Of a stretch of 64,000 nt of DNA, positions 977 to 50,818 are shown piece after piece. Every line of letters begins with the position of its first letter. Within the stretch, counting starts at the first letter, position 1. Location: the NCBI GenBank assembly GCA_021769295.1, contig JAETTD010000001.1, forward strand, positions 62,001-126,000. Direction: 5' to 3'. Position numbers and translations under genes: made by a program. Origin of the DNA: Bacillota bacterium (GTDB taxonomy: Bacteria > Bacillota > Clostridia > Peptostreptococcales > Anaerovoracaceae). Below the pieces are notes generated by a model. It was given only the letters and a program-made list of their open reading frames with translations, searched no databases and was not told the origin of the DNA.

Positions 977-1197
977 TGCCGTAAATTTTGAAAAAATGCT
1001 CAGATGCGGCATTATGGGGTGCATAATGATGACCAAACTGCCGTATTTTTAGAAAAATTCTTTATATACGGCATTTTTTGGCCTCCAACAGCTAAAAAAA
1101 TGCCGCATTCTTGAAAAAATTTCTCGAATGCGGCATTATCGCTACTCAGTACGCTGTTAAACTGCCGTAAATCATAAAATTTTATTGAATTGCGGCA
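977..1197. repeat. 62-bp palindrome array, TGCCG family, array 1 (4 units)
   Basis: Four units of TGCCGY-N23-RCGGCA start at 977, 1039, 1101 and 1163. Right half-sites start at 1006, 1068, 1130 and 1192. Each step is exactly 62 bp and each core is 35 bp. The 27-bp linkers share no clear sequence apart from A/T-rich edges. The array fills most of the gap between the amidohydrolase 3' end and whiA. Bases 768-976 hold the whiA leader and nothing else I recognise. Confidence 0.9.
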
Positions 1198-9876: not shown

Positions 9877-10097
9877 TGCCGCAACCGGAGATTTTTTTGA
9901 AGTTTGCGGCAGTTTTACCGTCATTGAAGCTCCTAAAATGCCGTAACTGAGTGAATTTTTGACATTTACGGCATTTTATCTGTCATTATGCCTTATAAAC
10001 TGCCGTAAATAAAAGAAATTTTGTAAATTCCGGCAATTTGGACGCTCTCACCGCAATAAAAATGCCGCATTTAAGGATTTTTTTGACTTTTGCGGCA
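9877..10097. repeat. 62-bp palindrome array, TGCCG family, array 2 (4 units)
   Basis: Left half-sites start at 9877, 9939, 10001 and 10063. Right half-sites start at 9906, 9968, 10030 and 10092. Steps are exactly 62 bp. One right half-site (10030) is CCGGCA, a single mismatch. The array lies between two convergent genes and between their terminators (9778 and 10123), so it would be poorly transcribed from either side. Confidence 0.9.
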
Positions 10098-10122
10098 GTC
10101 AGGCTCCTTGCCCGTTTACAAG

Positions 10123-10159
10123 GAAAACGCCGTGCATGATGCACGGCGTTTTCTTTTTT
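10123..10159. terminator. Bidirectional Rho-independent terminator
   Basis: A near-perfect 14-bp stem, AAAACGCCGTGCAT / ATGCACGGCGTTTT, has T-rich tails on both strands (CTTTTTT on plus, TTTTCC on minus). It serves the minus-strand M14 gene ending at 10185. Confidence 0.85.
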
Positions 10160-10184: not shown

Positions 10185-13100
10185 TTATTCAAATTTTCTG
10201 TTTCTTCTTACAACTACAACTGTGCCTGCTGCTGCTCCGCCAAATACGACAGCCAGCATAATCCACATGAAGATGTTGGAAGTATCACCTGTCTTGTTAA
10301 CGTCTGCAGGAGTTGTTGTTCCCGGTTTTTCAGGATTTTCCGGATCAACTACAGGTGGATTTTCAGGAGCTTCAACGCCTGCGTAAGCAGTATCGCCGAG
10401 AACTCTTGAGAACAGGAAGTTTGCGATGTATTTGAACTCATCCTGTGGGTGTCCTTTGTGGTCTAAGGAGTTAGCAAATGCTACGATATCCTTGCCGTCA
10501 GCTTTGTATTCGAAAGCTACCACGGAAGTGTTATATACGTCGAAAGCAGCCTGGTCATCATCGCTGAAGATACCTACGCATCCAACCATAGGAGTCTTAC
10601 CTGCGTTTTTAACCAGCGGAGTAGCTCCCTCAGGAATAGCTGAGAAGTAAGCAGTACCGTACTGGTAATTCTGGTCGTCTCCGTCCAGAGCATAGTTAGC
10701 ATTGAGAAGGTTAACTGTAGGATATTCTACATTTACCAATGCGTCAGTGCCGTTAGGTGCGCTCTTCTTGGTAACTCCGTCAAGAATTCCGCTCAATCTT
10801 CCGGAACCGCTGCCCCAGATCATCAGAGGAGTTCCTTCGGTAACTGCCTGTTTTGCAGTATTGTCAACACCTGAGAAGCTTGCGCCTACAATGGCATCAG
10901 CCTTGGTTGCCTTGTCTGTCAAAGTGAATCCCATCTGCTTTAATGCATACAGGTCGAAGCAGTAAGCATTTCCGCCAGGAAGTTCAATGTTACCTGCGGT
11001 TGCAGGAGCGCTTGCGCCTATAATATAAGCTTCCGGAGCCTTAGCGATTACGCTGGCAACGATGCCTGCTCCGTATACGCCTTCAGCGCTCAGTATATAC
11101 TTATCTGCAACGGTTAAGAAGTCTTCATATGAGCAGATGAAGTCGCCCATGTGCTCGCCTTCTGTAATCATAGCTACAGTCTTGCCTGCTCTCAGCAAAT
11201 CGTTAACTGCACATGCAGTATCTTCAGAAGCGTTGGAGATGATAACGTCAGCATCTGTAACGCCGGTAAACTGAGTAGCGAAATCTGCCAGATAAGTCAA
11301 TGTTCCGGCATAGTCATAACCGTCCTTGCAAACCTTATCGATTGCTTTGTATGCTTCAGGTTCTGCAACTGTGATTATGTCAAATCCACGAGCATAAGGA
11401 TGCTGTGAGAATGCTTCGGAATACAGTCCCTTCCAAACGGTTACGAATGTTCCAGGTCCGAAGTTTGCATGCAGCAGGGATCTCTTAGCCTGGTACATTG
11501 AAGCGATAACCGTACCTGCCGGATATTCTACTCCGTCATATGTGAATGCCTTGTCGGCAATCTTGTACTTCATACCGTTTCTTGCAATCCATTTAACTGC
11601 TTCTGCAGCGTCCTGAAGGTTCTTCTGATTTTCTTTATCCATAGGGATGATCAGGCATTCAGGATAGAAGTTGCCGTTTTCGCCTTCGCCGTCGTATACA
11701 GGTCTCATGATGTCAGCCTGTGCGCCTTGCTCGTCGTATTGGCTTACATAGTATTTTGCAACCTTATCATTGGAGTTTTCGTTGTTCAGTCCTCTTTTGA
11801 AGAGTTCTGCCTGACTTGTCAACAAGTCAATCTTGTTTTCCTGGATAAATCTTCCCTGACCGAGCAGTCCGTTAGGAATTACCTGTTCTGCAGCGATGTC
11901 ATCGTATGCAGGCATTTCCCATGTGATACCGCAAGTACCGTAGAATACAGGGAACTGTGAACCGAAGTTGGTTGACAGGTCATCCCAAGGTGCTCCCCAC
12001 TGTACGCCTGTACGGGGATTAGGATCAAGTTCGATATAGTCACGGGCAGGGAGTTCATAGCTGTTGAATTTTTCGTTGTTTGCAACAGCTGCAATACCTA
12101 CCGCCTCACCCAGCTTCAGGAATTTTTCACCTATTAAGTCATATTCGATGTTAGGATTGTGCGGTGCGCCGCATGGTTCTATAAGCATACCTTCAACTCT
12201 TCCGTGAATTTCGGTATAAACCATAGGGTTCCACTTAGTCATGAAGGCCATAGCGTTTATGTCTTCATTCATGGTCTGGTTAGCATAGTCTCTGTTAGGG
12301 TCAAAGCCTACGCCTGTAGCTCTGGTCTGCTGCATGTAACCTTCCATATTCATGGTAGGAACGCATACGAAGAATACATCGTCCAACAGCTCGTCGATAG
12401 TAAATTCATCAACGCCGGTATTGTAGTACTTGTCAAAGTCAACTACGGAAGAATATCCGTAAGTTGCGGATCTATCAGAAGTATCTCCGTTTTCGCCTCT
12501 GAGTCTTCCCAGCTCTGTAGCCCATTCGCCGTAAATTTCAGATAAGCCTGTTCCGAAAACGTTCTTCTTTTCGTCTTCCAGTTTAGCTCTGCCGGCATCG
12601 GTGTAGCTTTCGAGAGTTCTCAGTGAAATTTCATCTTCGTTTACCAGATTCTGAATGGTATTCATGATACCGTTTACTGCTGAGTTTTCATTTGTGTGGC
12701 AGTTGCTGACATAGATAGGAACCTTTAAGTTGTCATACTTTCCTGCCTTGATGTCTTTAAGAACCTGTGTAGGGTTTGTTTCGGACAGTTCAGTGTATTC
12801 CAGCCATTCCTGAACAGCCTTCTTGTCGCTTGCAACGATAACATAAGGGGTATCGTACTGGTCTATGGAAGAATGTCCGATAGAGCCAACTTCAACGTAT
12901 CTGTCGCCCTTATAGGATTTCAGAGCTTCGATTTCATCGAACAGCTCATAAGGTGTACGATATGAATCATAAGGAACTACCTTTGCGTGTACGGAACCTG
13001 CAGCCTTGTCATCTACAGTTGCAGAAAGGTTAAAGTATCCGCACTTATCAAGCCATGAACCGCCGTTGGTATGGTTAATGGAGTAAACTTTCTTTACTTC

Positions 13101-13571
13101 AGCGCTTGCAGTTGCATCGCCGGTATAGTAGAATTCGGTGCCCTGTGTCTTAAAAGTAACAACCAGGTCCTTGCCTTCAGCTTTAAGTTCTTCTACTTTA
13201 ATAACTTCTGTTCCTTCTTTGTCCTTCCATTCGGAGATTGCTCCGCCCTTGTTAGGGAAAGGATATAATGCAGGATCAAGATAATGTCTGTTCTCATCTC
13301 TTGTCAGGGAGAAAGAAATCTTGTTGTCTGCTACAGCCTGCTGGAGGTCTGCATCAGCAAGATTCGTCGGAATGGTTACCTTATGGGTAGCCTCTTCTGT
13401 CAACGAATACTGGAAGTCGATATCGTCATATGCAGGATATTTGCCGGCTAATGAGATACCGGGTGTCGTTGTGTCCATGGTCAGCTCTTCTACCGAAGCA
13501 AAAGCTGCCATCGGCATTATCAGCGAAAGGATCAATGCCGTCACAACCAGTTTAACTAATCTTTTTTTCAT
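10185..13571 (-). CDS. Secreted, wall- or membrane-anchored M14 zinc carboxypeptidase
   Basis: 1128 aa. A signal peptide (KKR, hydrophobic core, AFA cleavage near 26) leads into a long N-terminal region and then an M14 peptidase domain. The zinc motif HTNEN (HxxE) and the later TEIHGRVEG histidine are present, with FDPNRDYANQ and the TWEMPAYDD segment bearing a candidate catalytic Glu. A long C-terminal part follows with a glutamine-amidotransferase-like flavour. A Pro/Glu-rich linker, VNKTGDTSN, a hydrophobic span and RRNRKFE end the protein. This is an LPxTG-like tail without the LP, so either a variant sortase signal or a plain membrane anchor. It probably trims peptides outside the cell. 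Its only good upstream promoter has a poly-G spacer (13795-13825). Confidence 0.85.
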   Translation of the reverse strand: MKKRLVKLVVTALILSLIMPMAAFASVEELTMDTTTPGISLAGKYPAYDDIDFQYSLTEEATHKVTIPTNLADADLQQAVADNKISFSLTRDENRHYLDPALYPFPNKGGAISEWKDKEGTEVIKVEELKAEGKDLVVTFKTQGTEFYYTGDATASAEVKKVYSINHTNGGSWLDKCGYFNLSATVDDKAAGSVHAKVVPYDSYRTPYELFDEIEALKSYKGDRYVEVGSIGHSSIDQYDTPYVIVASDKKAVQEWLEYTELSETNPTQVLKDIKAGKYDNLKVPIYVSNCHTNENSAVNGIMNTIQNLVNEDEISLRTLESYTDAGRAKLEDEKKNVFGTGLSEIYGEWATELGRLRGENGDTSDRSATYGYSSVVDFDKYYNTGVDEFTIDELLDDVFFVCVPTMNMEGYMQQTRATGVGFDPNRDYANQTMNEDINAMAFMTKWNPMVYTEIHGRVEGMLIEPCGAPHNPNIEYDLIGEKFLKLGEAVGIAAVANNEKFNSYELPARDYIELDPNPRTGVQWGAPWDDLSTNFGSQFPVFYGTCGITWEMPAYDDIAAEQVIPNGLLGQGRFIQENKIDLLTSQAELFKRGLNNENSNDKVAKYYVSQYDEQGAQADIMRPVYDGEGENGNFYPECLIIPMDKENQKNLQDAAEAVKWIARNGMKYKIADKAFTYDGVEYPAGTVIASMYQAKRSLLHANFGPGTFVTVWKGLYSEAFSQHPYARGFDIITVAEPEAYKAIDKVCKDGYDYAGTLTYLADFATQFTGVTDADVIISNASEDTACAVNDLLRAGKTVAMITEGEHMGDFICSYEDFLTVADKYILSAEGVYGAGIVASVIAKAPEAYIIGASAPATAGNIELPGGNAYCFDLYALKQMGFTLTDKATKADAIVGASFSGVDNTAKQAVTEGTPLMIWGSGSGRLSGILDGVTKKSAPNGTDALVNVEYPTVNLLNANYALDGDDQNYQYGTAYFSAIPEGATPLVKNAGKTPMVGCVGIFSDDDQAAFDVYNTSVVAFEYKADGKDIVAFANSLDHKGHPQDEFKYIANFLFSRVLGDTAYAGVEAPENPPVVDPENPEKPGTTTPADVNKTGDTSNIFMWIMLAVVFGGAAAGTVVVVRRNRKFE

Positions 13572-16286: not shown

Positions 16287-16507
16287 TGCCGTAAAATCTG
16301 AATATTCTTTTAAATGCGGCATTTCTGCCGGTCAACAGACGGCCGGATTGCCGCAAATTTTTAAAATTCTTCCATTTACGGCATTTTTACCGCCTAATAG
16401 CCATAAAAACTGCCGCAAACCTCATAGAATTCATAAAATGCGGCAGTATTGACCCTTTGAAAGCCTTCAAACTGCCGCAAATGGCATAAAATTTATAAAA
16501 TACGGCA
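16287..16507. repeat. 62-bp palindrome array, TGCCG family, array 3 (4 units)
   Basis: Left half-sites start at 16287, 16349, 16411 and 16473. Right half-sites start at 16316, 16378, 16440 and 16502. All steps are 62 bp. The array begins 28 bp after the dnaJ stop (minus direction), and I see no classical terminator between dnaJ and the BKACE promoter, so it may be transcribed as the 3' end of the heat-shock mRNA. Bases 16143-16286 show nothing else. Confidence 0.9.
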
Positions 16508-16535: not shown

Positions 16536-17681
16536 TTACTTAAACAGTTCTTTCAATTTCTCTGCAAATCCGCCCTTCTTCTGATAGCAGTCTTCTGTAA
16601 CAACCTTGCCCATTTCGGTGATTGCCTTCTTCTGCTTGTTGTTAAGCTTTGTAGGGACTTCCAGATTCACCTTTACATAAAGATCGCCCTTGGACTCACG
16701 CCTCAGATGCTTGATACCTTTGTCTTTCAGGCGGAACACGGTTCCCGGCTGAGTTCCCGCAGGAATCTTATAGGAAACCTTGCCGTCCAGCGTAGGAACT
16801 ACAAGCTCTGCGCCAAGAGCCGCCTGGTCAAAGCTTATAGGCATTTCAAGATACAAATCGTCGCCCTGGCGTTTAAACAGCTTGTGAGGCTTTACGGATA
16901 TAACTATATACAAATCTCCCGTAGGACCGCCGTTTACGCCCGGCTCGCCCTGTCCTCTGATAGGGATAACGCTTTCGTTGTCAACGCCGGCAGGTATATC
17001 TATAGAAATTTTGACGTTCTTTCTGACTTTGCCGGTTCCCTTGCAGTCAGGGCAAGGCTCTTCTATTATCTTGCCGCTGCCGCCGCACTGGTCGCAGGTG
17101 GTAACGCTCTGGAACTGTCCGAAAGGAGTTCTCTGAGTCTGGCTCACCTGACCGCTGCCGCCGCACTTAGGACATGTTTTCTTTGAAGTCCCCGGTTTTG
17201 TTCCCTCGCCCTTGCAGGTCTTACACTGAACATATTTGCTGATTTCCAGTTCTTTCTTGGTTCCGAAAGCCGCCTCCTCAAAGGTTATGGTTATAGCCTT
17301 CTGGAGGTCTCTGCCTTTCTTTGGCTGGTTGGCTCTCTGCTGCTGTCTGCCTCCGCCGAAGCCGCCTCCGAACATGCCTCCGAACATATCGAAGATATCT
17401 TCAAAGCCGCCGAAACCGCCGCTAAAGCCTCCTCCTCCAAAACCGGCATTAGGGTCTACGCCCGCATGACCAAATCTATCGTACTTGCTCTTCTTGTCGG
17501 GGTCTGAAAGAACGCTGTAAGCCTCATTCACTTCTTTAAATTTTTCTTCTGCGGTCTTGTCTCCGGGATTCCTGTCGGGATGATATTTCATAGCCATTTT
17601 TCTGAAAGCTTTTTTAATCTCATCCTCACTTGCACCCTTTTTCAAGCCAAGCACTTCATAATAATCACGTTTTTCTGCCAT
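16536..17681 (-). CDS. dnaJ: Chaperone protein DnaJ
   Basis: 381 aa, the full type I architecture. A J domain with [10 protein letters not shown] (HPD) is followed by a Gly/Phe-rich linker (about 75-115), four zinc-finger repeats ([32 protein letters not shown]) and the C-terminal substrate-binding domain. It is the co-chaperone that delivers unfolded clients to DnaK and stimulates its ATPase. Last gene of the hrcA-grpE-dnaK-dnaJ operon, 97 bp after dnaK with a hairpin between them. The TGCCG repeat array starts just after its stop. Confidence 0.97.
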
Positions 17682-29198: not shown

Positions 29199-29386
29199 GC
29201 ACGTTTTTGTGATTTTGTGCAATAATGTTAGCAAAAATGCAAAACGTCGCAGCAGAGCTACAACGTTTCTGTAGTTTCACGCAATTATGTTAAGGTTTTC
29301 TGAAATCGTGTTGCCGGAGCTACAACATTCCTGCAATTTCATGCAATTATGTTATGGATTTTGCAGATTGTGGTTATCCGGTCGAA
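29199..29386. repeat. 62-bp repeat array, ATGTT family, left copy (3 cores)
   Basis: ATGTT boxes at 29225, 29287 and 29349 are exactly 62 bp apart. Each ends an imperfect palindrome of the form AACRTTnCTGC-N8-GCAATTATGTT. The second full unit is nearly identical to units of the right copy. The last 44 bp (TGCAATTATGTTATGGATTT onward to CCGGTCGA) recurs exactly at 40255. Confidence 0.85.
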
Positions 29387-29588: not shown

Positions 29589-29805
29589 GTTGCGCTTCTT
29601 GAAAATTGAATAGCAGCCGCCAGAGGGATACCTGCCGCAGCGGACAGCAGAGCGATGATATGAGCCTGCCCGCTGCTTAATCCGTGCATAGCACCGGCAG
29701 AGAAAACGCCGCTTAAAGGAAGCGTGGAACTGTATGGGAGGGCTGTGCTTACATATCCCTGATTCACTTGACAGGGATAAATCTATTTTCAAGGAGGAAA
29801 CGCCT

Positions 29806-29889
29806 ATGTGCAACAACAGGAAACCAAAGCGGAAGGAGGGATTGTATGCAGAAGTTGCAAACGGTCAACGCCGACACGCTCCTTTATGA
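29806..29889 (+). CDS. Possible 27-aa leader ORF of the RepA-like gene
   Basis: ATG 29806 follows CAAGGAGG with good spacing and reads MCNNRKPKRKEGLYAEVANG to a stop at 29889, overlapping the RepA-like start at 29846 in another frame. It could be a translational leader or chance. Low confidence. Confidence 0.25.
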   Translation: MCNNRKPKRKEGLYAEVANGQRRHAPL

Positions 29890-30898
29890 GCCGCTTGAGA
29901 AGCCGTCCTTTGTGGTGGACGGTCTGATACCCACAGGCTTGACCCTGTTATGCGGCTCGCAGAAAATCGGCAAGAGCTGGCTCATGCTCAAGCTCTGCCT
30001 ATGCGTGTCACAGGGCTTGCCCCTATGGGATATGCCGACATTAGAGAGCGATGTGCTGTACCTCTGCCTTGAGGACACCTTCTGCCGCATACAGGACAGG
30101 CTCTTTAAGCTGACAGACGAGGCAAGCGGGCGGCTTCATTTTGCCGTGGCAAGCTGCAAGCTGCCAGACGGTCTTATCGTGCAGCTTGAGGACTATCTGA
30201 AGGAGTACCCAGACAGCAGGCTCATTGTCATTGACACCTTGCAGAAGGTACGCACCGCTTCTAAGGACAACGCCTACGCCAACGATTATGGGGACATCTC
30301 CCTTATCAAAGACTTTGCTGACAGGCATTCCCTGTCGGTAGTGGTCGTACACCATATCCGCAAGCAGAATGACAGTGATGTGTTCAACAAAGTATCTGGA
30401 ACGACAGGCTTGACGGGAAGTGCGGACGCTACCTTTGTACTGGAAAAAGAAAGCAGGGCTTCCGATACCGCAAGGCTCTATGTGACGGGCAGGGACACGC
30501 CCTATCAGGAGTTTACGCTCCGCTTCCATGATTGCAGTTGGGAGCTTGTGGAGCGCAGGACGCAGGAACAGGCAGCGGCGGCGGAAATCCCGCCCGTCCT
30601 CTTTCGGCTTGTGGAATTTATGCAGGACAAAACCGAGTGGTCGGGTACGGCAACAGAGCTTGCCGCCGCAATGGGGGAAACCAGAGCCGCACCCAACGCC
30701 CTCACCAAGTGGATGAATGAGTACCGCATGGGTTTTCTGGCGGAAAACCATATCCGCTATGATTACCACCGAAAAAACAGCGGCAGGCTGATTCTGCTTG
30801 CAAGGCAGGACAAGGGCGGCGGTGACGATGGTGACGGTAGTGACGGTGTTTTTGGGATACCCCCTGCCGTTGTCACTGTCACCGATAGCGTGTGCTGA
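29846..30898 (+). CDS. RepA-like AAA ATPase/helicase of the element
   Basis: The track starts at 29768, but ATG 29846 (MQKLQTVNAD) has AAGGAGGG and removes 26 non-domain residues, leaving 350 aa. It is an AAA_25/RepA-type hexameric helicase: Walker A region CGSQKIGKSWLMLKL (about 37-50), Walker B VIDTLQKV, then VVHHIRKQ and the GSADATFVLEK sensor. A winged-helix-like C-terminal part follows. Such proteins support replication or mobilization of integrative elements. The last 25 residues (GGGDDGDGSDGVFGIPP) are encoded by one arm of the GACGGTG inverted repeat, so the tail is probably a by-product of that DNA. Confidence 0.75.
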   Translation: MQKLQTVNADTLLYEPLEKPSFVVDGLIPTGLTLLCGSQKIGKSWLMLKLCLCVSQGLPLWDMPTLESDVLYLCLEDTFCRIQDRLFKLTDEASGRLHFAVASCKLPDGLIVQLEDYLKEYPDSRLIVIDTLQKVRTASKDNAYANDYGDISLIKDFADRHSLSVVVVHHIRKQNDSDVFNKVSGTTGLTGSADATFVLEKESRASDTARLYVTGRDTPYQEFTLRFHDCSWELVERRTQEQAAAAEIPPVLFRLVEFMQDKTEWSGTATELAAAMGETRAAPNALTKWMNEYRMGFLAENHIRYDYHRKNSGRLILLARQDKGGGDDGDGSDGVFGIPPAVVTVTDSVC

Positions 30899-31279
30899 AA
30901 CGGCAGTCTTGCCCTGCGGGTGACAGCTATGTGTGTGGTGACGGTGATTTCGGGACGCCCCGCCGCTGCCACCCTTCGGGAGAACACCCCGTAAACGCAA
31001 AATGCAGGCGTGGGGATTACTCGCCCTCTCTCGGCTCGTAAACCCACCCCTGCGTCAGAAAAATCGTGCCGATTTTTCCGACAGCGTTTACAGGGTGTAA
31101 CACACTACACCTTGCAAGCAAGGTCGTGTGCCAGCCGTTCCCTCTGGACTCCCTTATGGCAGGGCTTACGCCCTGCTTTATCCTCCGCCTTGCTTCGGAT
31201 AAAAGGACGGCGGCGTGACGGTGGCGGCTCCCGTGAGGGGGTATCCCAAAACCACCGTCACTACCGTCACCACCGTCAC
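30821..31279. other. Candidate oriT/oriV region with GTGACGGTG iterons in inverted repeats
   Basis: The block GTGACGGTAGTGACGGTG followed by TTTTTGGGATACCCCC (30821-30868) returns in inverted orientation at 31234-31279 (GGGGGTATCCCAAAACCACC and so on). A third, partial direct copy lies at 30933-30970. The gap 30899-31324 is gene-free, GC-rich and directly upstream of the relaxase gene, the usual site of an origin of transfer. The nic site cannot be named. Confidence 0.5.
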
Positions 31280-31324
31280 GCAAGGGAGGAATACCCGCCG
31301 AAAAAAGAAAGGAGAATGTCGCCT

Positions 31325-32290
31325 ATGCCTTATGCAATCCTGCGCTTTAAAAAGCGCAAGGCAGGCTCTGTCGCTTCCTGCGAACGCCACAACGAGCGGA
31401 AGAAAGAAGCCTACAAGAGCAACCCAGATATAGATATGGAACGCTCTAAAAACAATTACCACCTTGTTAATCCACCCCGCTACACCTACAAGAAAGAGAT
31501 TAACCGAAAGGTTGCGGAAGCGGGCTGCAAGGTGCGCCGTGACAGCGTGATGATGGTGGAAACGCTCATCACCGCTTCGCCAGAATTTATGAACAGTTTA
31601 CCACCCGCCGAGCAGAAAGCGTATTTTACAGAGGCTTTAGACTTTATTGCGGAGCGTGTCGGGAAGCAGAATATCCTCTCCGCCGTGGTGCATATGGACG
31701 AGAAAACGCCCCATATGCACCTCTGCTTTGTGCCGATTACGCCAGATAACAAGTTGTCGGCGAAAGCCATTTTAGGCAACCAGAAATCCTTATCCGAGTG
31801 GCAGACCGCCTACCATGAGCGTATATCGGCAAGGTGGAATGAGCTTGAAAGAGGACAGTCCTCTATGATTACAAAGCGGAAGCATATTCCCACTTGGCTC
31901 TTTAAGACGGCTTCCAGACTGGATAAGCAGTATGATGAAATCGTGTCTGCCCTCTCCGATATTAACGCCTTTAACGCAGGGAAAAAGCGTGACAAGGCTC
32001 TGGAACTGATTGCGGCATGGCTGCCCGAAGTGGAGAAATTCTCTAAGGAAATCGGGAAACAGAGCGCCTATATCGAGAGCCTGAAGGCACAAATCGGGCA
32101 GGAAGCCGACTATGCCGAGCGTATGCGTGATGGGAAATATGCGGAGGAACTGAAGGTGCGGGAAGCAAACAAAAAGATATTTGAATTGCAGAGAACCAAC
32201 GAGCAGATGGGACGGCTGCTGAAAAAGATACCGCCCGAAGTGTTGGAGGAAATCCAAAAACCGAACAGAAACCAGACCAGAGAAAGGTAG
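31325..32290 (+). CDS. MobV family relaxase (plasmid recombination/mobilization protein)
   Basis: The track starts at 31010. ATG 31325 (MPYAILRFKKRKAGS) has AAAGGAGA upstream and gives 321 aa. It shows the N-terminal substrate motif SCERHNERKKEAYKSNPDID, motif NPPRYTY and the metal-binding HMDEKTPHMHLCFVPI (HxDExxPHxH) of Mob_Pre proteins. Coiled-coil character (about 240-310) follows. It would nick the element's oriT for mobilization by a helper conjugation system. ParB follows after 7 bp. In Tn4451 the matching role is played by TnpZ; I do not claim orthology. Confidence 0.85.
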   Translation: MPYAILRFKKRKAGSVASCERHNERKKEAYKSNPDIDMERSKNNYHLVNPPRYTYKKEINRKVAEAGCKVRRDSVMMVETLITASPEFMNSLPPAEQKAYFTEALDFIAERVGKQNILSAVVHMDEKTPHMHLCFVPITPDNKLSAKAILGNQKSLSEWQTAYHERISARWNELERGQSSMITKRKHIPTWLFKTASRLDKQYDEIVSALSDINAFNAGKKRDKALELIAAWLPEVEKFSKEIGKQSAYIESLKAQIGQEADYAERMRDGKYAEELKVREANKKIFELQRTNEQMGRLLKKIPPEVLEEIQKPNRNQTRER

Positions 32291-32297
32291 GAATTGA

Positions 32298-33152
32298 ATG
32301 AAGAAACAGGATTTTACCGTGTTGAAGATTAAGGATTTACACCCTTTCCCCGACAACCCGTTCCGTGTCGTGGAGGACGAACTGCTGATGGAAATGTCGG
32401 AAAGCATTAAGGAATTTGGAATTGTCACGCCGATTATCGCCCGCCCGAAGGAGGACGGGGACGGTTACGAGGTCATTGCAGGACAGCGGCGTGTGAGGGC
32501 TTCACAGCTTGCAGGGATAGATACCGTCCCTGCTTTTGTTTTGCCCTTAGACCGTGACAGGGCGATTATTACCCTTGTGGACAGCAACATGCAGCGTGAA
32601 AATATCCTGCCGAGCGAGCGTACCTTTGCCTACAAGATGAAATTAGAAGCGATGAAGCGGCAGGGCTTCCGCACGGATTTAACTTCTGCCCAAGTTGGGG
32701 AGAAGTTGACTTCGGTGGAGCAGCTTGCGAAGCAGAGCGCAAACAGCCGCACCCAGATACAGCGTTTTATCCGACTGACCGAACTGATACCGCCGATTTT
32801 GCAGATGGTGGACGAGGGGAAAATCGCCCTCACGCCTGCGGTGGAGTTATCGTTTTTGAAGAAGGACGAGCAGGAAAACCTGTTCACCACAATGGAGAGC
32901 GAGGAAGCAACGCCCTCTTTATCGCAGGCGCAGCGTATGAAGCAGCTAAGCCAGACGGGGCGGCTTGACATGGATACCATCTTTGCGGTTATGACCGAGG
33001 AAAAGGCAAACCAGAAAGAAACGCTGAAAATCAAGACCGACAAGCTAAGGAAATACTTCCCGAAAGGCACAACGCCGAAGCAGATGGAGGACTTCATTAT
33101 CCGCCTGTTGGAGCGTGAATTGCAGCGGAAACGAAGCCGTGACAGCCGATAA
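32298..33152 (+). CDS. ParB/RepB/Spo0J family partition protein
   Basis: 284 aa. The ParB nuclease-like N-terminus has IKDLHPFPDNPFRV, then EFGIVTPIIARP, the GYEVIAGQRRVRASQLAG box II and DSNMQRENILPSERTFAYKMK. A central helix-turn-helix (LTSVEQLAKQSANSRTQIQRFIRL) and a C-terminal helical part follow. No ParA is present in the element, so a role in control of mobilization or excision is as likely as true partition. Start ATG 32298 has GGTAGGAAT upstream. Confidence 0.88.
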   Translation: MKKQDFTVLKIKDLHPFPDNPFRVVEDELLMEMSESIKEFGIVTPIIARPKEDGDGYEVIAGQRRVRASQLAGIDTVPAFVLPLDRDRAIITLVDSNMQRENILPSERTFAYKMKLEAMKRQGFRTDLTSAQVGEKLTSVEQLAKQSANSRTQIQRFIRLTELIPPILQMVDEGKIALTPAVELSFLKKDEQENLFTTMESEEATPSLSQAQRMKQLSQTGRLDMDTIFAVMTEEKANQKETLKIKTDKLRKYFPKGTTPKQMEDFIIRLLERELQRKRSRDSR

Positions 33153-33197
33153 TGTCCTTTTTTCGGATAGTAAACACAGAAAGTTGAGGTTTAGAAA

Positions 33198-33422
33198 ATG
33201 AAAGATATTCAATATGAGATTGTAAAGGAAATCGCTGTTTTATCCAAAAGCGACAGCGGCTACACGAAGGAAATCAACCTGATTTCTTGGAACGGGAAAG
33301 AGCCGAAGTACGATATACGCAGCTTCTCCCCCGACCGTGAGAAGTGCGGCAAGGGCATTACGCTGACCGAAGCGGAAGCAAAATCGCTTCTGGAAGCATT
33401 AAGAAAACAACTGAATGACTGA
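33198..33422 (+). CDS. YdbC family (PC4-like) protein
   Basis: 74 aa. The sequence EIVKEIAVLSKSDSGYTKEIN then NGKEPKYDIR and FSPDREKCGKGITLTEAE matches the single-domain YdbC/PC4 fold that binds single-stranded DNA as a dimer. It is full length for the family. It is often found in integrative elements near the relaxase or recombinase; its role here is unknown. Confidence 0.75.
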   Translation: MKDIQYEIVKEIAVLSKSDSGYTKEINLISWNGKEPKYDIRSFSPDREKCGKGITLTEAEAKSLLEALRKQLND

Positions 33423-33488
33423 TATGATTTGCGGATTAGGGGCGTTTTCGGACGCCCTTTTCCCATTTTGAAGGGAGGGTATCTGCCG

Positions 33489-33680
33489 ATGGCAAGAACG
33501 GCTACACGCCCGAAGATTACCGTGCAGGCGGTCTATTCTGGTGAAAAGGATATGCAGGAGATGTTTGTTTCCCTGCTTGTCAATGCGGTGCGGAAAGGGA
33601 AATCCTCTGTCCGCACCTTTGAGATTGTGAAAGATACAGACTACAATTTACCCATAACCGATGAAAAGGAGGCGAGCTGA
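33489..33680 (+). CDS. Small element protein upstream of the serine recombinase
   Basis: ATG 33489 (MARTATRPKITVQAVYSG) follows GGGAGGG and gives 63 aa; the track's longer form from 33429 adds 20 residues without support. Its stop abuts the recombinase ATG, so the two are translationally coupled. No domain recognised. It sits where small TnpW-like proteins occur in related elements, but similarity is not proven. Confidence 0.65.
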   Translation: MARTATRPKITVQAVYSGEKDMQEMFVSLLVNAVRKGKSSVRTFEIVKDTDYNLPITDEKEAS

Positions 33681-35373
33681 ATGAGCATTTTAAGGACAGC
33701 TCTCTACTGCCGTTTATCCAAAGACGACGATATGGCACAGGGCGACAGCGAGAGCATTAAGACACAGAAAGCAATGCTGACACAGTACGCAAAGGAACAC
33801 GGCTTTATGGTGGTGGAAATCTATGTGGACGATGGTTGGAGCGGCTTAAATTTCGACAGACCAGATTTTAACCGTATGCTCGATGACATCGAAGCGGGCA
33901 GGATTGATGTGGTCATCACAAAGGATTTATCCCGTCTGGGGCGTGACCATCTGAAGGTCGGGCACTTCACGGAGATATATTTCCCGATGAAAAATGTGCG
34001 GTACATCGCCGTCAATGACTGCGTGGACACCGCCAACCGAAACAACGATATAGCGGCTCTGAAAAATGTGATGAACGAATTTTACTCAAGGGACAATTCA
34101 AGGAAAATCCGTTCGTCCATACGGGCAAGGGCAAAGGCGGGGCTTTACCGCTGTTCCTATGCCCCGTTCGGCTATCGGAAAACGCCCGATAACCATAACA
34201 GACTGATAATTGACGAGGAAACAGCCCCGATTGTGAAGCGGATTTTTGCGCTTGCGGGCGCAGGAATGGGGGGCGCACAAAATCGCAAAGCAGCTTCGGG
34301 AGGAACAGGCAGCCGCCCCCTCTTGGTGGCAGCACACCCGTGGGGAGAAGGACTATTCCCAACGCTTTTCCAATCCAGAGAACAAATATGAGTGGTCGCA
34401 TACCGTTATCCGCAATATTATCAAAAACCCCGTCTATCTCGGTCACACTATCATGTGCAAGAAGGAGATTATCTTCAAGGTCGGGAAATACAGGGATATA
34501 CCAGAGGAAGAACAGATACGGGTGGACAACACCCACGAGCCGCTTGTCACGCAGGAGGATTTTGACAATGCAAACGCTAAGATTTTAAGCCGCAGGCGGG
34601 ATACAACCGATAATTTTGTATCGCCCTTTTCAGGGCTTGTGAAGTGCGGCACTTGCGGGAAAGCGTTGGGCTTGCGGTATTGGGGGAAAGACAGACATCA
34701 CATTTTTGTCTGTACCACTTATGCCCGCAATACAAAATCCTGTACCGACCACCGCATTTTCTACGATGATTTATACAATGCGGTGCTTGCCGATATTCAG
34801 TACCATGCCCGAATTGCCTATGAGGACAGGGAGAAGGCGGTGGCTCTGGCGGTCAGAATGAATGAGAAAGCGGACGGAAGCCGTGGGAAATCCAACGAAG
34901 CGAAGCTGAAACAGGCGAGGAAACGCTACGATGAAGTGACAAGGCTGTTTGACAGGCTCTATGAGGATTCCCTTTCGGGGCGTATCTCCAATGACAACTT
35001 CTCCCGCCTGATAGACAAATACCAGACGGAGCAGGAGCAGCTTTTGGGGCAGATACAGGCGATAGAGAACGCCTTGCAGGAGGTAAGGGACAACCAGCAG
35101 AACGCCGTGAAATGGGCGGACTTGATGGCACAGTATGTGGGAATACAGGAACTGACCGCCGAAAACCTCAACCTTCTCATTGAGCGGATTGAAGTGTTTG
35201 ACCGAACGGAAACAGACGGGGAAACCGAGCAGGTAATCCGTATCTGTTACCGCTTCGGCGGTTACATAGGGGAACACCGCTTTAAGGCAAAGGTTTTAAG
35301 GAATACGGGCGGTTGGGAGCAACGCCGCAAAAAAGAAAGGAAAGACAATGGAAAAGTATCATTTGTATCTTGA
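33681..35373 (+). pseudogene. Large serine recombinase (TnpX-like), frameshifted
   Basis: Two overlapping frames together make one TnpX-type site-specific recombinase of about 563 aa. The first (33681-34391) has the resolvase catalytic domain: TALYCRLSKDD with the nucleophile Ser13, ESIKTQKAMLTQYA, VDDGWSGLNFDRP and KDLSRLGRDHLKVG. It loses frame after FALAGAGMG. The second continues from about 34262 with AHKIAKQLREE, the recombinase domain, the zinc-ribbon CGTCGKALGLRYWG and a coiled coil. The join is a run of six G (ATGGGGGGCGCAC); five G restores one protein. As read, the catalytic domain is cut off from the DNA-binding part, so the element would be locked in place unless slippage or a sequencing error explains it. 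Confidence 0.85.
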
Positions 35374-35518
35374 CGAAGCGGAACGGCGGCTGATCATCCT
35401 CTGCCTAAATGAGCTTAGAAACAGGCTCATAGCCGAGGGCAGATATACCGACTGCGTAGACGAACTGCTGATAAAGGCGGCAGGGGCAAAGAAAGTGAAA
35501 TTAAAAATACGGAGGTAA
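35348..35518 (+). CDS. Small element protein (56 aa)
   Basis: Not in the track. ATG 35348 follows AAAGAAAGGAAAG and overlaps the recombinase end by 26 bp. The product MEKYHLYLDEAERRLIILCL continues to KKVKLKIRR. Its stop is 6 bp before tnpV and contains that gene's GGAGG. Small proteins of this kind accompany TnpV in related elements. Function unknown. Confidence 0.7.
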   Translation: MEKYHLYLDEAERRLIILCLNELRNRLIAEGRYTDCVDELLIKAAGAKKVKLKIRR

Positions 35519-35524
35519 CGGACA

Positions 35525-35899
35525 ATGGCAAAATCAATCTTTGAGGAAATGGGCGGCAGATACGAAAGACAGGGCGATTACATTCTCCCCTGCCTTACCG
35601 TACCGCCCGAAGAAGAAAAGCCAATAGGCGTTTTCGGACAGCGGCACTTGCGGTATCTGCGGGAGTACCGCAAAGTTACATACACCAATCTTCTAACAAG
35701 CGGCAGGCTCAACACCTACCTTGCCGACATCGATAAACAGGCACAGGAACGCTTTGAAAGGCTCATAGAGGGCATGAAGCAGGCACAGGGTATCACGGAA
35801 CAGCTAAAGGCAGAAAACGCGTTAGAATGGACAGGAAGAATGAATAACATAAGGGCTTGTGCGATGGAGATTGTGAATGAAGAAATCATTTTCGCATAG
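35525..35899 (+). CDS. tnpV: Transposon-encoded protein TnpV
   Basis: 124 aa. MAKSIFEEMGGRYERQGDYI, then PIGVFGQRHLRYLREY, LLTSGRLNTYLADIDKQAQ and the C-terminal RMNNIRACAMEIVNEEIIF are characteristic of TnpV from Tn4451/Tn4453-type elements. The protein is mainly helical and of unknown biochemical role; in Tn4451 it lies just downstream of tnpX, as here. This gene is the main reason for the Tn4451-like label. Confidence 0.85.
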   Translation: MAKSIFEEMGGRYERQGDYILPCLTVPPEEEKPIGVFGQRHLRYLREYRKVTYTNLLTSGRLNTYLADIDKQAQERFERLIEGMKQAQGITEQLKAENALEWTGRMNNIRACAMEIVNEEIIFA

Positions 35900-40112: not shown

Positions 40113-40300
40113 CACGTTTTTATGGTTTCACGCAATAACGTTAAGGTTTTCCGAAATCGTGTTGCCGGAGCTACAACATTCCTGCAATTTCACGCAATTA
40201 TGTTAAGGTTTTCCGAAACGGTGGTGCCGACGCTACAATGCTTCTGTGAATTCATGCAATTATGTTATGGATTTTGCAGATTGTGGTTATCCGGTCGAGG
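40113..40300. repeat. 62-bp repeat array, ATGTT family, right copy (3 cores)
   Basis: Boxes at 40138 (ACGTT), 40200 and 40262 are 62 bp apart. The array is a direct repeat of the left copy (29199-29386) and includes the identical 44-bp end up to CCGGTCGA. A GC-rich, CGAG/CGGCC-rich stretch follows (40300-40410). Gap 39867-40568 therefore holds the element end, two arrays, this GC island and the nhaC terminator. Confidence 0.85.
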
Positions 40301-47851: not shown

Positions 47852-49615
47852 ATGATCGAGATTAAGAATACCCGGGTATTAAATTGGGTAAACGAATGTG
47901 CAGAGCTGACAAATCCAAAGGAGATAGTATGGATTGACGGCTCAGAAGAACAACTTGAAGCAATACGTCAGGAAGCATGCGACACAGGCGAAATGATACG
48001 CCTCAATGAAGAAAAACTGCCGGGATGTTACTATTACAGAACAGACCCCAAAGACGTGGCAAGAGACGAAAAAAGAACGGTAATCTGCACCACTTATCAG
48101 AAGGATGCAGGTCCTACCAACAACTGGGTTCAAAAAGACGAAATGTATGCAAAAATGCGTCCTCTTTTCAAGGATTCCATGAAAGGCCGTACCATGTATG
48201 CAATACCTTTTTCCATGGGAGTTCCCGGTACTGAATTTTCAAAGATAGGAATCGAACTCACCGATTCAATTTACGTTGTGCTTTCCATGCATATAATGAC
48301 TCATGTAGGAGACATAGTGATAGAACAGCTCAACAAGGGAGCTGATTTTGTAAAATGTCTGCATTCCAAAGCAGAAGTCAACGCAGAGAAAAAATATATA
48401 GCTCACTTCCCTGAAGACAACACCATCTGGAGCATCAACTCCGCATACGGCGGCAACGTTCTTCTCGGAAAGAAGTGCCTTGCGCTGCGTATCGGTTCAT
48501 GGCTCGGAAAGCAGGAAGGCTGGATGGCTGAACACATGCTCATCCTGTGCATAGAAAATCCTCAAGGCGAAAAGAAATACATATGCGCCGCTTTTCCAAG
48601 CGCCTGCGGCAAGACAAACCTTGCCATGCTGATTCCGCCTGAACATTTGAAGAAGAAGGGTTACAAAGCTTACACCATAGGTGACGATATTGCTTGGCTC
48701 CGTATAGGTGATGACGGCAGACTTTATGCCGTAAATCCTGAAAACGGATTCTTCGGAGTTGCTCCGGGCACCAACAGCAAGTCCAACAATAACGCTCTTA
48801 TGACAACCAAGAAAAATACAATTTACACTAACGTGTGCAGAAATCTGGACGACAATACGGTATGGTGGGAAGGTCTCGACCAGCCTGCTCCTACCAACGG
48901 CGAAGACTGGCAGGGCCGCCCTTGGAATGCAGAGACAGCAACGGAAAAAGGTGCTCATCCCAACTCAAGGTTTACAGCACCTGCAGAGAACTGTCCTTCC
49001 ATTGCTCCTGAATTCTTCACAGGCGAAGGCGTTCCTATCAGCGCAATAATCTTCGGCGGACGCCGCGCAAAAGCAGAACCGCTGATTTGTCAGTCCTTTG
49101 ACTGGAACCATGGCGTATTTATGGGTTCCAAAATGTCTTCGGAAACTACCGCTGCTGCCAACGGCGCTGTCGGCGTTGTAAGACATGACCCTATGGCAAT
49201 GCTTCCTTTCTGCGGATACCATATGGGCGACTATTTCCAGCACTGGATTGATATGGGCAAAAAAATGACCAATCCGCCTAAGATCTTCAATGTAAACTGG
49301 TTCCGCAAGGATGATGAAGGCAAGTTCATATGGCCGGGATTCGGAGATAACCTCCGCGCTCTCTTATGGGCTCTCGAGCGTTGTGAAGATAATGCGGACG
49401 CAAGTGAGACTCCTATCGGATATGTCCCTACCGCCGAATCGCTGGATACAGAAGGTATAGATATTACTGACGAGCAGCTTTCCGAAATTCTCACTATTGA
49501 TAAGGATGTATGGAAAGGCGAACTTGAGGGTATTAAAGAATGGTATGCCAAGTTTGACCATATGCCTGAAGAGCTTACGTCAGCGCTCCAAAAACTTGAG
49601 GAAGACTTGAAATAG
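47852..49615 (+). CDS. pckG: Phosphoenolpyruvate carboxykinase (GTP)
   Basis: 587 aa. Its GTP-type features are FPSACGKTNLAML (P-loop/kinase-1a), the GDDIAWLR metal site, NPENGFFGVAPGT, the FGGRRAKAEPL region and the NWFRKDDEGKFIWPGFGDN end. It interconverts oxaloacetate and PEP with GTP/GDP; in fermenters it often runs in the carboxylating direction. Start ATG 47852 has GGAGAGGAAG upstream. Single gene with its own terminator. Confidence 0.95.
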   Translation: MIEIKNTRVLNWVNECAELTNPKEIVWIDGSEEQLEAIRQEACDTGEMIRLNEEKLPGCYYYRTDPKDVARDEKRTVICTTYQKDAGPTNNWVQKDEMYAKMRPLFKDSMKGRTMYAIPFSMGVPGTEFSKIGIELTDSIYVVLSMHIMTHVGDIVIEQLNKGADFVKCLHSKAEVNAEKKYIAHFPEDNTIWSINSAYGGNVLLGKKCLALRIGSWLGKQEGWMAEHMLILCIENPQGEKKYICAAFPSACGKTNLAMLIPPEHLKKKGYKAYTIGDDIAWLRIGDDGRLYAVNPENGFFGVAPGTNSKSNNNALMTTKKNTIYTNVCRNLDDNTVWWEGLDQPAPTNGEDWQGRPWNAETATEKGAHPNSRFTAPAENCPSIAPEFFTGEGVPISAIIFGGRRAKAEPLICQSFDWNHGVFMGSKMSSETTAAANGAVGVVRHDPMAMLPFCGYHMGDYFQHWIDMGKKMTNPPKIFNVNWFRKDDEGKFIWPGFGDNLRALLWALERCEDNADASETPIGYVPTAESLDTEGIDITDEQLSEILTIDKDVWKGELEGIKEWYAKFDHMPEELTSALQKLEEDLK

Positions 49616-49627
49616 AAAAGTTGTACG

Positions 49628-49655
49628 CCGGCAGGTGAACCCTGCCGGTGGTTTT
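49628..49655 (+). terminator. Terminator after pckG
   Basis: CCGGCAGG-TGAAC-CCTGCCGG, then TGGTTTTATTT, 13 bp after the stop. Confidence 0.8.
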
Positions 49656-49700: not shown

Positions 49701-49921
49701 TGCCGCAAATCTTTGATTTTGTTTTAAATGCGGCATTTTGCGAGCTATTCTGAGGGTCGGACTGCCGCAAATTCCGAAATTTATTTTGATTGCGGCATTT
49801 TTAGGGTGTCCGGACGGGCAAAACTGCCGTAAACACAAAAAAATTCTTTAAATGCGGCATTTTCGCCGGTCGATAAAGGGCAAAACTGCTGTAAATGCCC
49901 CAATTTAATATGATTGCGGCA
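49701..49921. repeat. 62-bp palindrome array, TGCCG family, array 4 (4 units)
   Basis: Left half-sites start at 49701, 49763, 49825 and 49887 (the last is TGCTGT). Right half-sites start at 49730, 49792, 49854 and 49916. All steps are exactly 62 bp. It lies between the pckG terminator and the 3' end of the convergent unknown gene at 50000. Nothing else is seen in gap 49616-49999. Confidence 0.9.
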
Positions 49922-49999: not shown

Positions 50000-50818
50000 T
50001 CATACTTGCTCATTCTCAAACACCTCCAAATCGGCAGCAGCCAATATGTTTTCATCGCAGCTTTCAAGAACATCATCGCTCCTTGCCATTACATAAAAGA
50101 AAATGCTGCATTCTGCTTCTTCAAAATACCTGGCGTAGATTCTTCCCCTCATTTGCACAGGCGCAAAATTTTCCTCTGTATCGTAATTAGGCGAACCGTA
50201 TTGAATATAGTTTCTCAGTTTTTCACATCTCTCATGAAGAACCCCGTTTACAGTCATCTCCGCATCAAGGCAGACCCAGTCGTCATAACCTGCAAGGCTG
50301 ACTCCCTTGGTAACGCCGTCAACCTCCCAAGAAAACACCTCATCCTTCTTCGGCATTCCCAAATCGCCTAACACCAATCTGGTAAAATCGTACCTCGGAA
50401 CCCGGGAAATCTTATCCAAATCAACATTTCCCTTTTCATCTATGCCGTATCTTTCGTTCACCGCATATGCGCCGTAAAAAGAATTGTAATATTCGCAAGT
50501 ATCATCGTATATCCGGCTGCATCCTCTCTTTACATCAAATTCCGGGAAATTATATAAAATGGTCAGGCGTATGTCCTTGTCTCCCGTAAATGCCCTGAAT
50601 CCTTCGTCTGCATTAAATGTCATAACAAACGGGTACCAGCCCTCATCCGTTCCCAGCTCGATTCCTATTCCCTTTTCCGCCAAAAGGCTTTCTCTTTCAT
50701 TCGTGAAGCTGTATATCTTCATCACTGCCAGGCTCTTGGCATATGCGGCAAGCGGCGATGTCAGAAACAGCGCAAGAATCAATGTAAGAAGCCCGATTGC
50801 AATCCACTTCTTTTTCAT
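50000..50818 (-). CDS. Secreted protein of unknown function
   Basis: 272 aa. A clear signal peptide (KKKW, hydrophobic 8-22, cleavage near AYA-KS) precedes a soluble, acidic domain with several Tyr/Asp-rich stretches (YDDTCEYYNSFYGAY, RIYARYFEEAE). One Cys lies in the RGCSRIYDDTCEYY pair, and others occur at WVCLD, HERCEK, ECSIFF and SCDEN. I do not recognise a family. It is divergent from the LOG gene and convergent with pckG across repeat array 4. Confidence 0.75.
   Translation of the reverse strand: MKKKWIAIGLLTLILALFLTSPLAAYAKSLAVMKIYSFTNERESLLAEKGIGIELGTDEGWYPFVMTFNADEGFRAFTGDKDIRLTILYNFPEFDVKRGCSRIYDDTCEYYNSFYGAYAVNERYGIDEKGNVDLDKISRVPRYDFTRLVLGDLGMPKKDEVFSWEVDGVTKGVSLAGYDDWVCLDAEMTVNGVLHERCEKLRNYIQYGSPNYDTEENFAPVQMRGRIYARYFEEAECSIFFYVMARSDDVLESCDENILAAADLEVFENEQV

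Follow-up and report, generated by a model that had tools for sequence, protein, structure and literature searches.

Regularly spaced inverted repeats dispersed at dozens of loci in this genome are best explained as candidate protein-bound scaffolds of curved duplex DNA that were spread by a MITE-like element, are kept by selection and may serve as putative buffers or insulators behind genes (probability about 0.55). As read from the sequence, each array is made up of eight TGCCGY half-sites that alternate in orientation and are set at intervals of 30 and 32 bp, or roughly three helical turns, and an alternation of A/T and G/C every 10.33 bp (62/6) runs through units and linkers alike. The arrays were first described in a stretch of 64,000 nucleotides (the window), which lies within contig C31 of an assembly of 2,258,471 bases (2.26 Mb; 61 contigs, 97% complete). 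The best named match of its phosphoenolpyruvate carboxykinase (PEPCK) is to a Bacillota metagenome-assembled genome from goat rectum (88% identity).

The initial annotation of the window had claimed four arrays of four palindromes each, and all four are present where it placed them, with half-site starts 29 bp and units 62 bp apart. Array 1 (977..1197, minus strand) has units at 977, 1039, 1101 and 1163 and contains eight TGCCG half-sites. Array 2 (9877..10097, plus strand; units at 9877, 9939, 10001 and 10063) occupies the gap between a convergent MFS gene and a gene of 1128 aa. Array 3 (16287..16507, minus strand; units at 16287, 16349, 16411 and 16473) lies beyond the 3' end of dnaJ (16536..17681, minus strand), 28 bp past its stop. 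Array 4 (49701..49921, minus strand; units at 49701, 49763, 49825 and 49887) is found 85 bp past the stop of the PEPCK (GTP) gene (47852..49615, plus strand) and is convergent with an ORF of 272 aa. The strands of the arrays were assigned by linker polarity. The window arrays follow dnaJ, the PEPCK gene and the MFS gene, with the 3' end of an M20 peptidase gene also nearby. The ORFs flanking arrays 2 and 4 (10185-13571, 1128 aa; 50000-50818, 272 aa) have no Pfam or NCBIfam matches. The sixteen units originally counted include 14 that carry TGCCGY-N23-RCGGCA exactly (0 expected, 100 shuffles) and two that are slightly degenerate, the third unit of array 2 (10001), which ends in CCGGCA, and the fourth unit of array 4 (49887), which starts with TGCTG.

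The exact unit pattern occurs 271 times in the assembly, and once when it is read backwards. Scaled by the number of units per array in a sample, this count gives an estimate of about 84 arrays. The sample, stretches of this genome together with the window (545,536 bases, 545 kb), holds 43 arrays and 168 units. Four units were called in 36 of the 43 arrays, three in 4, five in 2 and two in 1. Two of the called three-unit arrays are four-unit arrays, one of them cut by the end of a stretch (C20:129821) and the other split by an insertion sequence (C1:142). The TGCCG/CGGCA words are perfect in 157 of the 168 units. The initial annotation had proposed a genome-wide scan of the spacing, which turned out to be tight rather than scattered: 123 of 125 unit steps are 62 bp and the other two are 63 bp. 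Its proposals of selection on spacing and of cores lying on one face of the helix over six helical turns are likewise supported, and, as it stated, no named repeat class could be found; Rfam gave no match in the window at gathering score. A half-site variant one base longer, TGACCG, occurs at C5:73035, C5:85338, C1:36603, C17:55083 and C5:131, always within an array, and accompanies both 63-bp steps. The arrays are high-copy and extragenic, sitting in gaps between called ORFs, and 4 of 43 overlap an ORF of at least 80 aa. CRISPR arrays were considered and rejected, since only about 10 of the 35 bases of a unit are near-invariant and linkers are common to the copies of recent arrays.

The family appears to be confined to this genome. 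The 62-bp tandem pattern was found in none of 98 other relatives (5 of the genus, 54 of the family, 39 of the order), and a scan of GTDB contigs, which may have left out near records of the genome itself, returned no stretches. A viral scan gave 65 single pattern matches, of which five were flagged on their A/T content; none was flagged as having more than two units. When one array region was searched against plasmids and phages by BLAST, 16 of 17 rows matched the flanking gene and one plasmid row matched 40 bp outside the array; array 3 had no plasmid match. When 297 genomes of the order were searched with a profile, strong matches were restricted to this assembly, while 36 others had one or two weak matches; the unit was absent from the nine weak-match loci inspected. 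A de novo scan for spaced words in 317,900 bases of four genus mates (G001-G004) revealed no analogous family; a comparable scan gives a loud signal in this assembly. No array was found downstream of the dnaJ orthologues in the same four genomes. A 62-bp four-unit array of this form was not found in the open-licence literature, and the available portion of a survey of REP sequences makes no mention of one (PMC12306157).

Comparison of the copies points to spread by a mobile element. The 35 clean four-unit arrays comprise 14 in one recent cluster (>70% identity) and 21 old arrays with a mean pairwise identity of 0.62. A search with the whole recent consensus, in which 40 of 123 candidates were scored, showed that the recent subfamily has at least 40 copies at 89-97% identity, 37 of the 40 being exactly 221 bp long and the other three 219, 220 and 223 bp; none of five genus mates matches this consensus. 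Because the recent copies match over the entire array, the four-unit format is inherited by the copying of whole arrays. The initial interpretation is amended on this point: whole arrays were copied as a MITE-like element and the format was not assembled anew each time. The flanks common to recent copies terminate in GGGGCTGTCGCACAGCCGAYTGAAAAGTCGGC and the inverse of this sequence. Allowing at most one mismatch, a stretch of 17 bases from this end was found at 11 sites of the genome and at none in the five genus mates; ten of the 11 sites also hold array units and the 11th lies at a contig start, and an autonomous parent with matching ends was not found among them. Among 34 recent copies, both ends were recognised in 5, the left only in 9, the right only in 5 and neither in 15, and no ends were recognised in the 21 old copies (cut-off of 5 mismatches in 20, passed by 0.2% of random windows). 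Inverted ends were recognised in the recent subfamily alone, and outer inverted repeats were rejected as a general property of the arrays (mean match of 7.06 for flanks of the same array and 6.98 across arrays). The gap that matches array C11:8076 measures about 94 bp in the genus mate G004 as opposed to 376 bp here; it contains a terminator-like stem and no array. The only rve-type transposase gene found is part of a different, IS3-family element. The REP-associated Y1 transposase that had been suggested as a partner (PF01797) is absent, with no match in the assembly (97% complete) and matches in 5 of 14 control genomes.

The different parts of the arrays have diverged to very different extents. 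Among old arrays, identity is 0.98 in half-sites, 0.58 in the inner 25 bp, 0.50 in linkers, 0.40 in linker cores and 0.25 in flanks. Pairwise differences between recent copies amount to 0.4% for half-sites, 12% for inner parts and 17% for linkers; the corresponding values for old copies are 2.1%, 42% and 50%, and 42 of 81 linker positions in old copies deviate from the recent consensus. The claim that linkers are unrelated is thus true between old lineages, whereas linkers are conserved within the recent subfamily and have a phased consensus in old arrays. The TGCCG half-sites are about 98-99% intact beside linkers that are half diverged, even in copies without inverted-repeat ends. Across the 34 recent and 21 old copies compared, the mean number of half-site mismatches per array (40 positions) is 0.20-0.40 in recent copies, irrespective of whether two, one or none of the ends remain, and 0.43 in old copies. 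Half-sites were the means by which old arrays were detected, and decayed old arrays could therefore be missed; recent copies were found by whole-array similarity and provide a cleaner test, less affected by this ascertainment. Known arrays score 64-247 in a position-weight scan, and elsewhere nothing exceeded 20 bits. A BLAST search with all 35 clean arrays as queries found three places outside called arrays: an array cut by an insertion sequence, a trimmed unit and a weak match of 38 bp. By comparison of copies that all come from one genome, the array core was shown to be retained, apparently by purifying selection, after the ends erode.

What is kept in the arrays extends beyond the half-sites to the helical phase. 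In old arrays the A/T content oscillates mainly with a period of 62/6 = 10.33 bp (power 4.9 vs 0.23 shuffled), with the best period, 10.3 bp, continuous over 221 bp. The median power at 10.33 bp is 4.88 in 38 arrays and 0.20 in 52,316 background windows; none of the latter attains the array median, and 14 are at or above the array minimum of 2.87. More than the half-sites is needed to explain this phase, since the power falls to 0.88 once inner parts and linkers are shuffled and the linkers carry the phase by themselves (1.80 vs 0.25 shuffled). Even the variable 19-bp linker core has a power of 0.76 (0.25 shuffled; maximum of 0.46 in 300 shuffles). The predicted curvature is 142 degrees per 125 bp in arrays and 37 in the background median, under a wedge model. 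In this model the array looks curved throughout, with all half-sites near one face.

A second repeat family of 62 bp, unrelated in sequence, is found in the window at 29215-29367 and 40128-40280 (core TTTCACGCAATTATGTTAAGGTTTTCCGAAA, about three units each). It forms direct repeats flanking a mobile element on both sides. This element (29768-35899), which it bounds, encodes AAA_25, Mob_Pre, ParB_N, a serine recombinase (two ORFs) and TnpV in a stretch of raised G+C. Some recent array elements (C5:131787, L291, L292) also have pieces of this core in their left flank. The second family was considered as a sign that 62 bp is a structural ruler, but it lacks the 10.33-bp phase and was not counted as evidence.

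The placement of the arrays relative to genes is strongly biased. By simple ORF calling, 22 of 39 arrays lie in convergent gaps and the other 17 in tandem ones, with none between divergent genes; a further 4 of the 43 were excluded for a missing neighbour. All gaps (n=401) include 60 convergent and 57 divergent ones. The arrays are enriched in convergent gaps (22/39 vs 38/362 other gaps, p=1.4e-10) and depleted from divergent gaps (0/39, p=0.0018), and their orientation in tandem gaps is mixed (7 with the genes, 10 against). The enrichment behind genes could instead reflect the removal of insertions from promoters.

The arrays are also insertion targets of the IS3-family element. This element, with ends TGTGGWCCCCAT (TAATGTGGWCCCCAT), has eight occurrences at or near contig ends (L172-L180), the assembly being broken at its copies, and its transposase matches NCBIfam IS3 at 303.8 bits (cut-off 160). 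Host DNA is visible at seven junctions, of which three pairs have a common 4-bp duplication (GTCT, AAAC and TTGA). Four insertions can be distinguished, one in unit 2 of a recent array, one in a linker, one just behind a unit and one 15 bp off an array. All four are thus within arrays or at most 15 bp away; the arrays with 40-bp margins make up 1.1% of the genome. Counting junctions (6 of 7 near arrays, p ~1e-11) treats the two sides of one insertion as independent, and the four events were used instead. When the flanks of the TTGA pair are rejoined, they give a 27-bp linker, and for this reason C1:142 and the unit at the start of C28 are taken as one four-unit array. REP sequences are known targets of insertion sequences, with the IS3 family among those that target them (PMC1525189).

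Could the arrays act as RNA instead, as tandem hairpins or terminators at the 3' ends of transcripts? They have the location for it, and 15 of the 16 window units fold better than shuffles (z < -1.5); good folding is expected of any short inverted repeat. The symmetric positions, however, do not covary. The bases at positions 6/30 of the old units are TA in 36, CA in 26, TG in 8, CG in 7 and others in 7 (n=84), so that 26 of the 84 have C-A at the sixth pair. At nine symmetric positions the paired fraction is close to that expected from independence, and the RNAalifold covariation term is 0.08 (two-unit segments from 12 of the 21 old arrays). The 5' half-site TGCCGYAATT and the reversed 3' half-site TGCCGTAAAT mispair in the consensus at one pair, positions 9 and 27. 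Moreover, separate terminator-like stem-loops stand by two of the four window arrays: one of 17 pairs beside array 2 (10120..10156, plus strand; shuffles of the region average 0.9 sites) and one of 10 pairs in the gap between the PEPCK gene and array 4 (49626..49650, plus strand; shuffles average 0.8 sites). No comparable stem was found beside arrays 1 and 3. Hairpins or terminators were rejected as the main function on the absence of covariation, these separate stems and the lack of an Rfam match, and this role is highly improbable. The RNA hairpin that the initial annotation had offered as an alternative is accordingly disfavoured, with the pairing positions varying independently, and duplex DNA rather than RNA looks to be under selection.

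A purely selfish element, in which the half-sites would be transposase-binding repeats kept only for spread and without a host role, would account for the MITE-like ends, the at least 40 recent copies and the array-free gap in a genus mate. It would not lead one to expect that half-sites are kept equally well in the 15 of 34 recent and 21 of 21 old copies without recognisable ends. Half-decayed copies were not seen in the position-weight scan or by BLAST, and an autonomous partner was not found, the sole rve-type transposase gene being that of the IS3-family element; this explanation is unlikely. Also unlikely, and slightly more so, is that the arrays are high-affinity sites for DNA gyrase, functionally like BIME-2 or the strong gyrase site of phage Mu, where wrapping by the enzyme would remove positive supercoils behind genes. 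Phased G/C, curved DNA and a position behind or between convergent genes all suit such sites, and gyrase prefers phased G/C DNA and BIMEs (PMC6379681). The E. coli gyrase motif, however, has a period of 10.75 bp in two 47-bp arms around a 36-bp centre (PMC6379681), whereas the arrays have an unbroken period of 10.33 bp and a near-invariant TGCCG word every 30/32 bp that is absent from the degenerate E. coli motif. The genus mates presumably have gyrase and yet are without arrays. Very unlikely, finally, are centromere-like partition sites bound by a ParB- or ParR-type protein. Such sites would agree with the constant period of the tandem units and with the inverted repeat in each unit, and a ParB_N protein is encoded in the mobile element of the window (32298-33152), but about 84 dispersed loci far exceed the need of a partition system and the ParB-like gene lies within an element bounded by a different repeat family. 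Taken together, the invariant words at set helical positions, the phased curvature of sequence that otherwise varies freely and the retention after the loss of ends are better explained by a nucleoprotein scaffold than by an RNA or a purely selfish repeat.

The nearest published kinds of repeat are BIMEs, REPINs, REPs targeted by insertion sequences and a MITE with an internal minisatellite. BIME/REP sequences (E. coli BIME-2) resemble the arrays in being high-copy, extragenic and behind genes, in having regularly spaced inverted sites of alternating orientation and in being targets of insertion sequences including the IS3 family; they also bind proteins, a likeness that rests on the candidate binder of the arrays (PMC2817692, PMC1525189). 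In contrast, the arrays have no base-paired palindrome with compensatory changes, no RAYT gene in the assembly, a nearly invariant unit number and 62-bp period, an unbroken 10.33-bp phase and a range of one species. The REPINs of P. fluorescens are likewise doublets in inverted orientation, in which the ends are conserved and the middle varies in sequence at a constant length, but are described as hairpins with compensatory changes and RAYTs (PMC3116915), whereas the arrays come in fours, without covariation and with no RAYT found. In Porphyromonas gingivalis, BrickBuilt is an intergenic MITE limited to its species that has short inverted repeats at its ends and an internal tandem repeat, a minisatellite of 23-nt units without spacers (PMC4596501); the arrays have inverted units of 35 bp joined by linkers of 27 bp, a helical phase and half-sites under selection. 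Strong gyrase sites and the E. coli gyrase motif share phased G/C over more than 100 bp with the arrays, the motif spanning 130 bp with arms phased at 10.75 bp and a 36-bp centre (PMC6379681); the arrays differ in the period of 10.33 bp, in having no 36-bp centre and in their eight invariant words. Plasmid centromeres of the sopC type are likewise built of tandem units that recur at a fixed period and contain an inverted repeat. The arrays are instead dispersed at about 84 loci of one genome.

How might such a scaffold work? A candidate sequence-specific DNA-binding protein would most likely occupy the eight half-sites from one face of the helix, with the pre-curved DNA wrapping around it in a coil of about 220-250 bp. 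HU is single-copy in the assembly, as in 4 of 5 genus mates, and an archaeal-type histone was not found in the assembly, so there is no obvious wrapping protein; extra copies of HU in this role were rejected, as the assembly has none. The comparison of copies shows that the blocks spread as a MITE-like element of about 0.4 kb with ends GGGGCTGTCGCACAGCCGAYTGAAAAGTCGGC, whose ends then erode while the array core is probably kept by purifying selection. The weakest step is the last: judging from their placement behind genes, in many cases convergent ones, the arrays may act as a topological buffer or insulator at points where supercoils driven by transcription meet. A bolder and more tentative proposal, which we consider possible but less probable than not, is a sequence-programmed chromatin element in bacteria, in which about 84 pre-curved sites of 220 bp would undergo nucleosome-like wrapping by the candidate protein and, from a mobile-element origin, would have been selected as supercoil barriers behind genes.

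If the scaffold reading is true, the arrays would be a rare natural case of bacterial DNA whose sequence sets both where a protein binds and which helical path joins these sites, present in dozens of copies and selected at gene ends. The arrays also provide their own internal control, in that half-sites, phase and linkers differ widely in their rates of change within one element. Two questions would become testable. Which factors bind dispersed intergenic repeats that lie outside the REP/RAYT world? And does DNA wrapping mediate selection on intergenic repeats?
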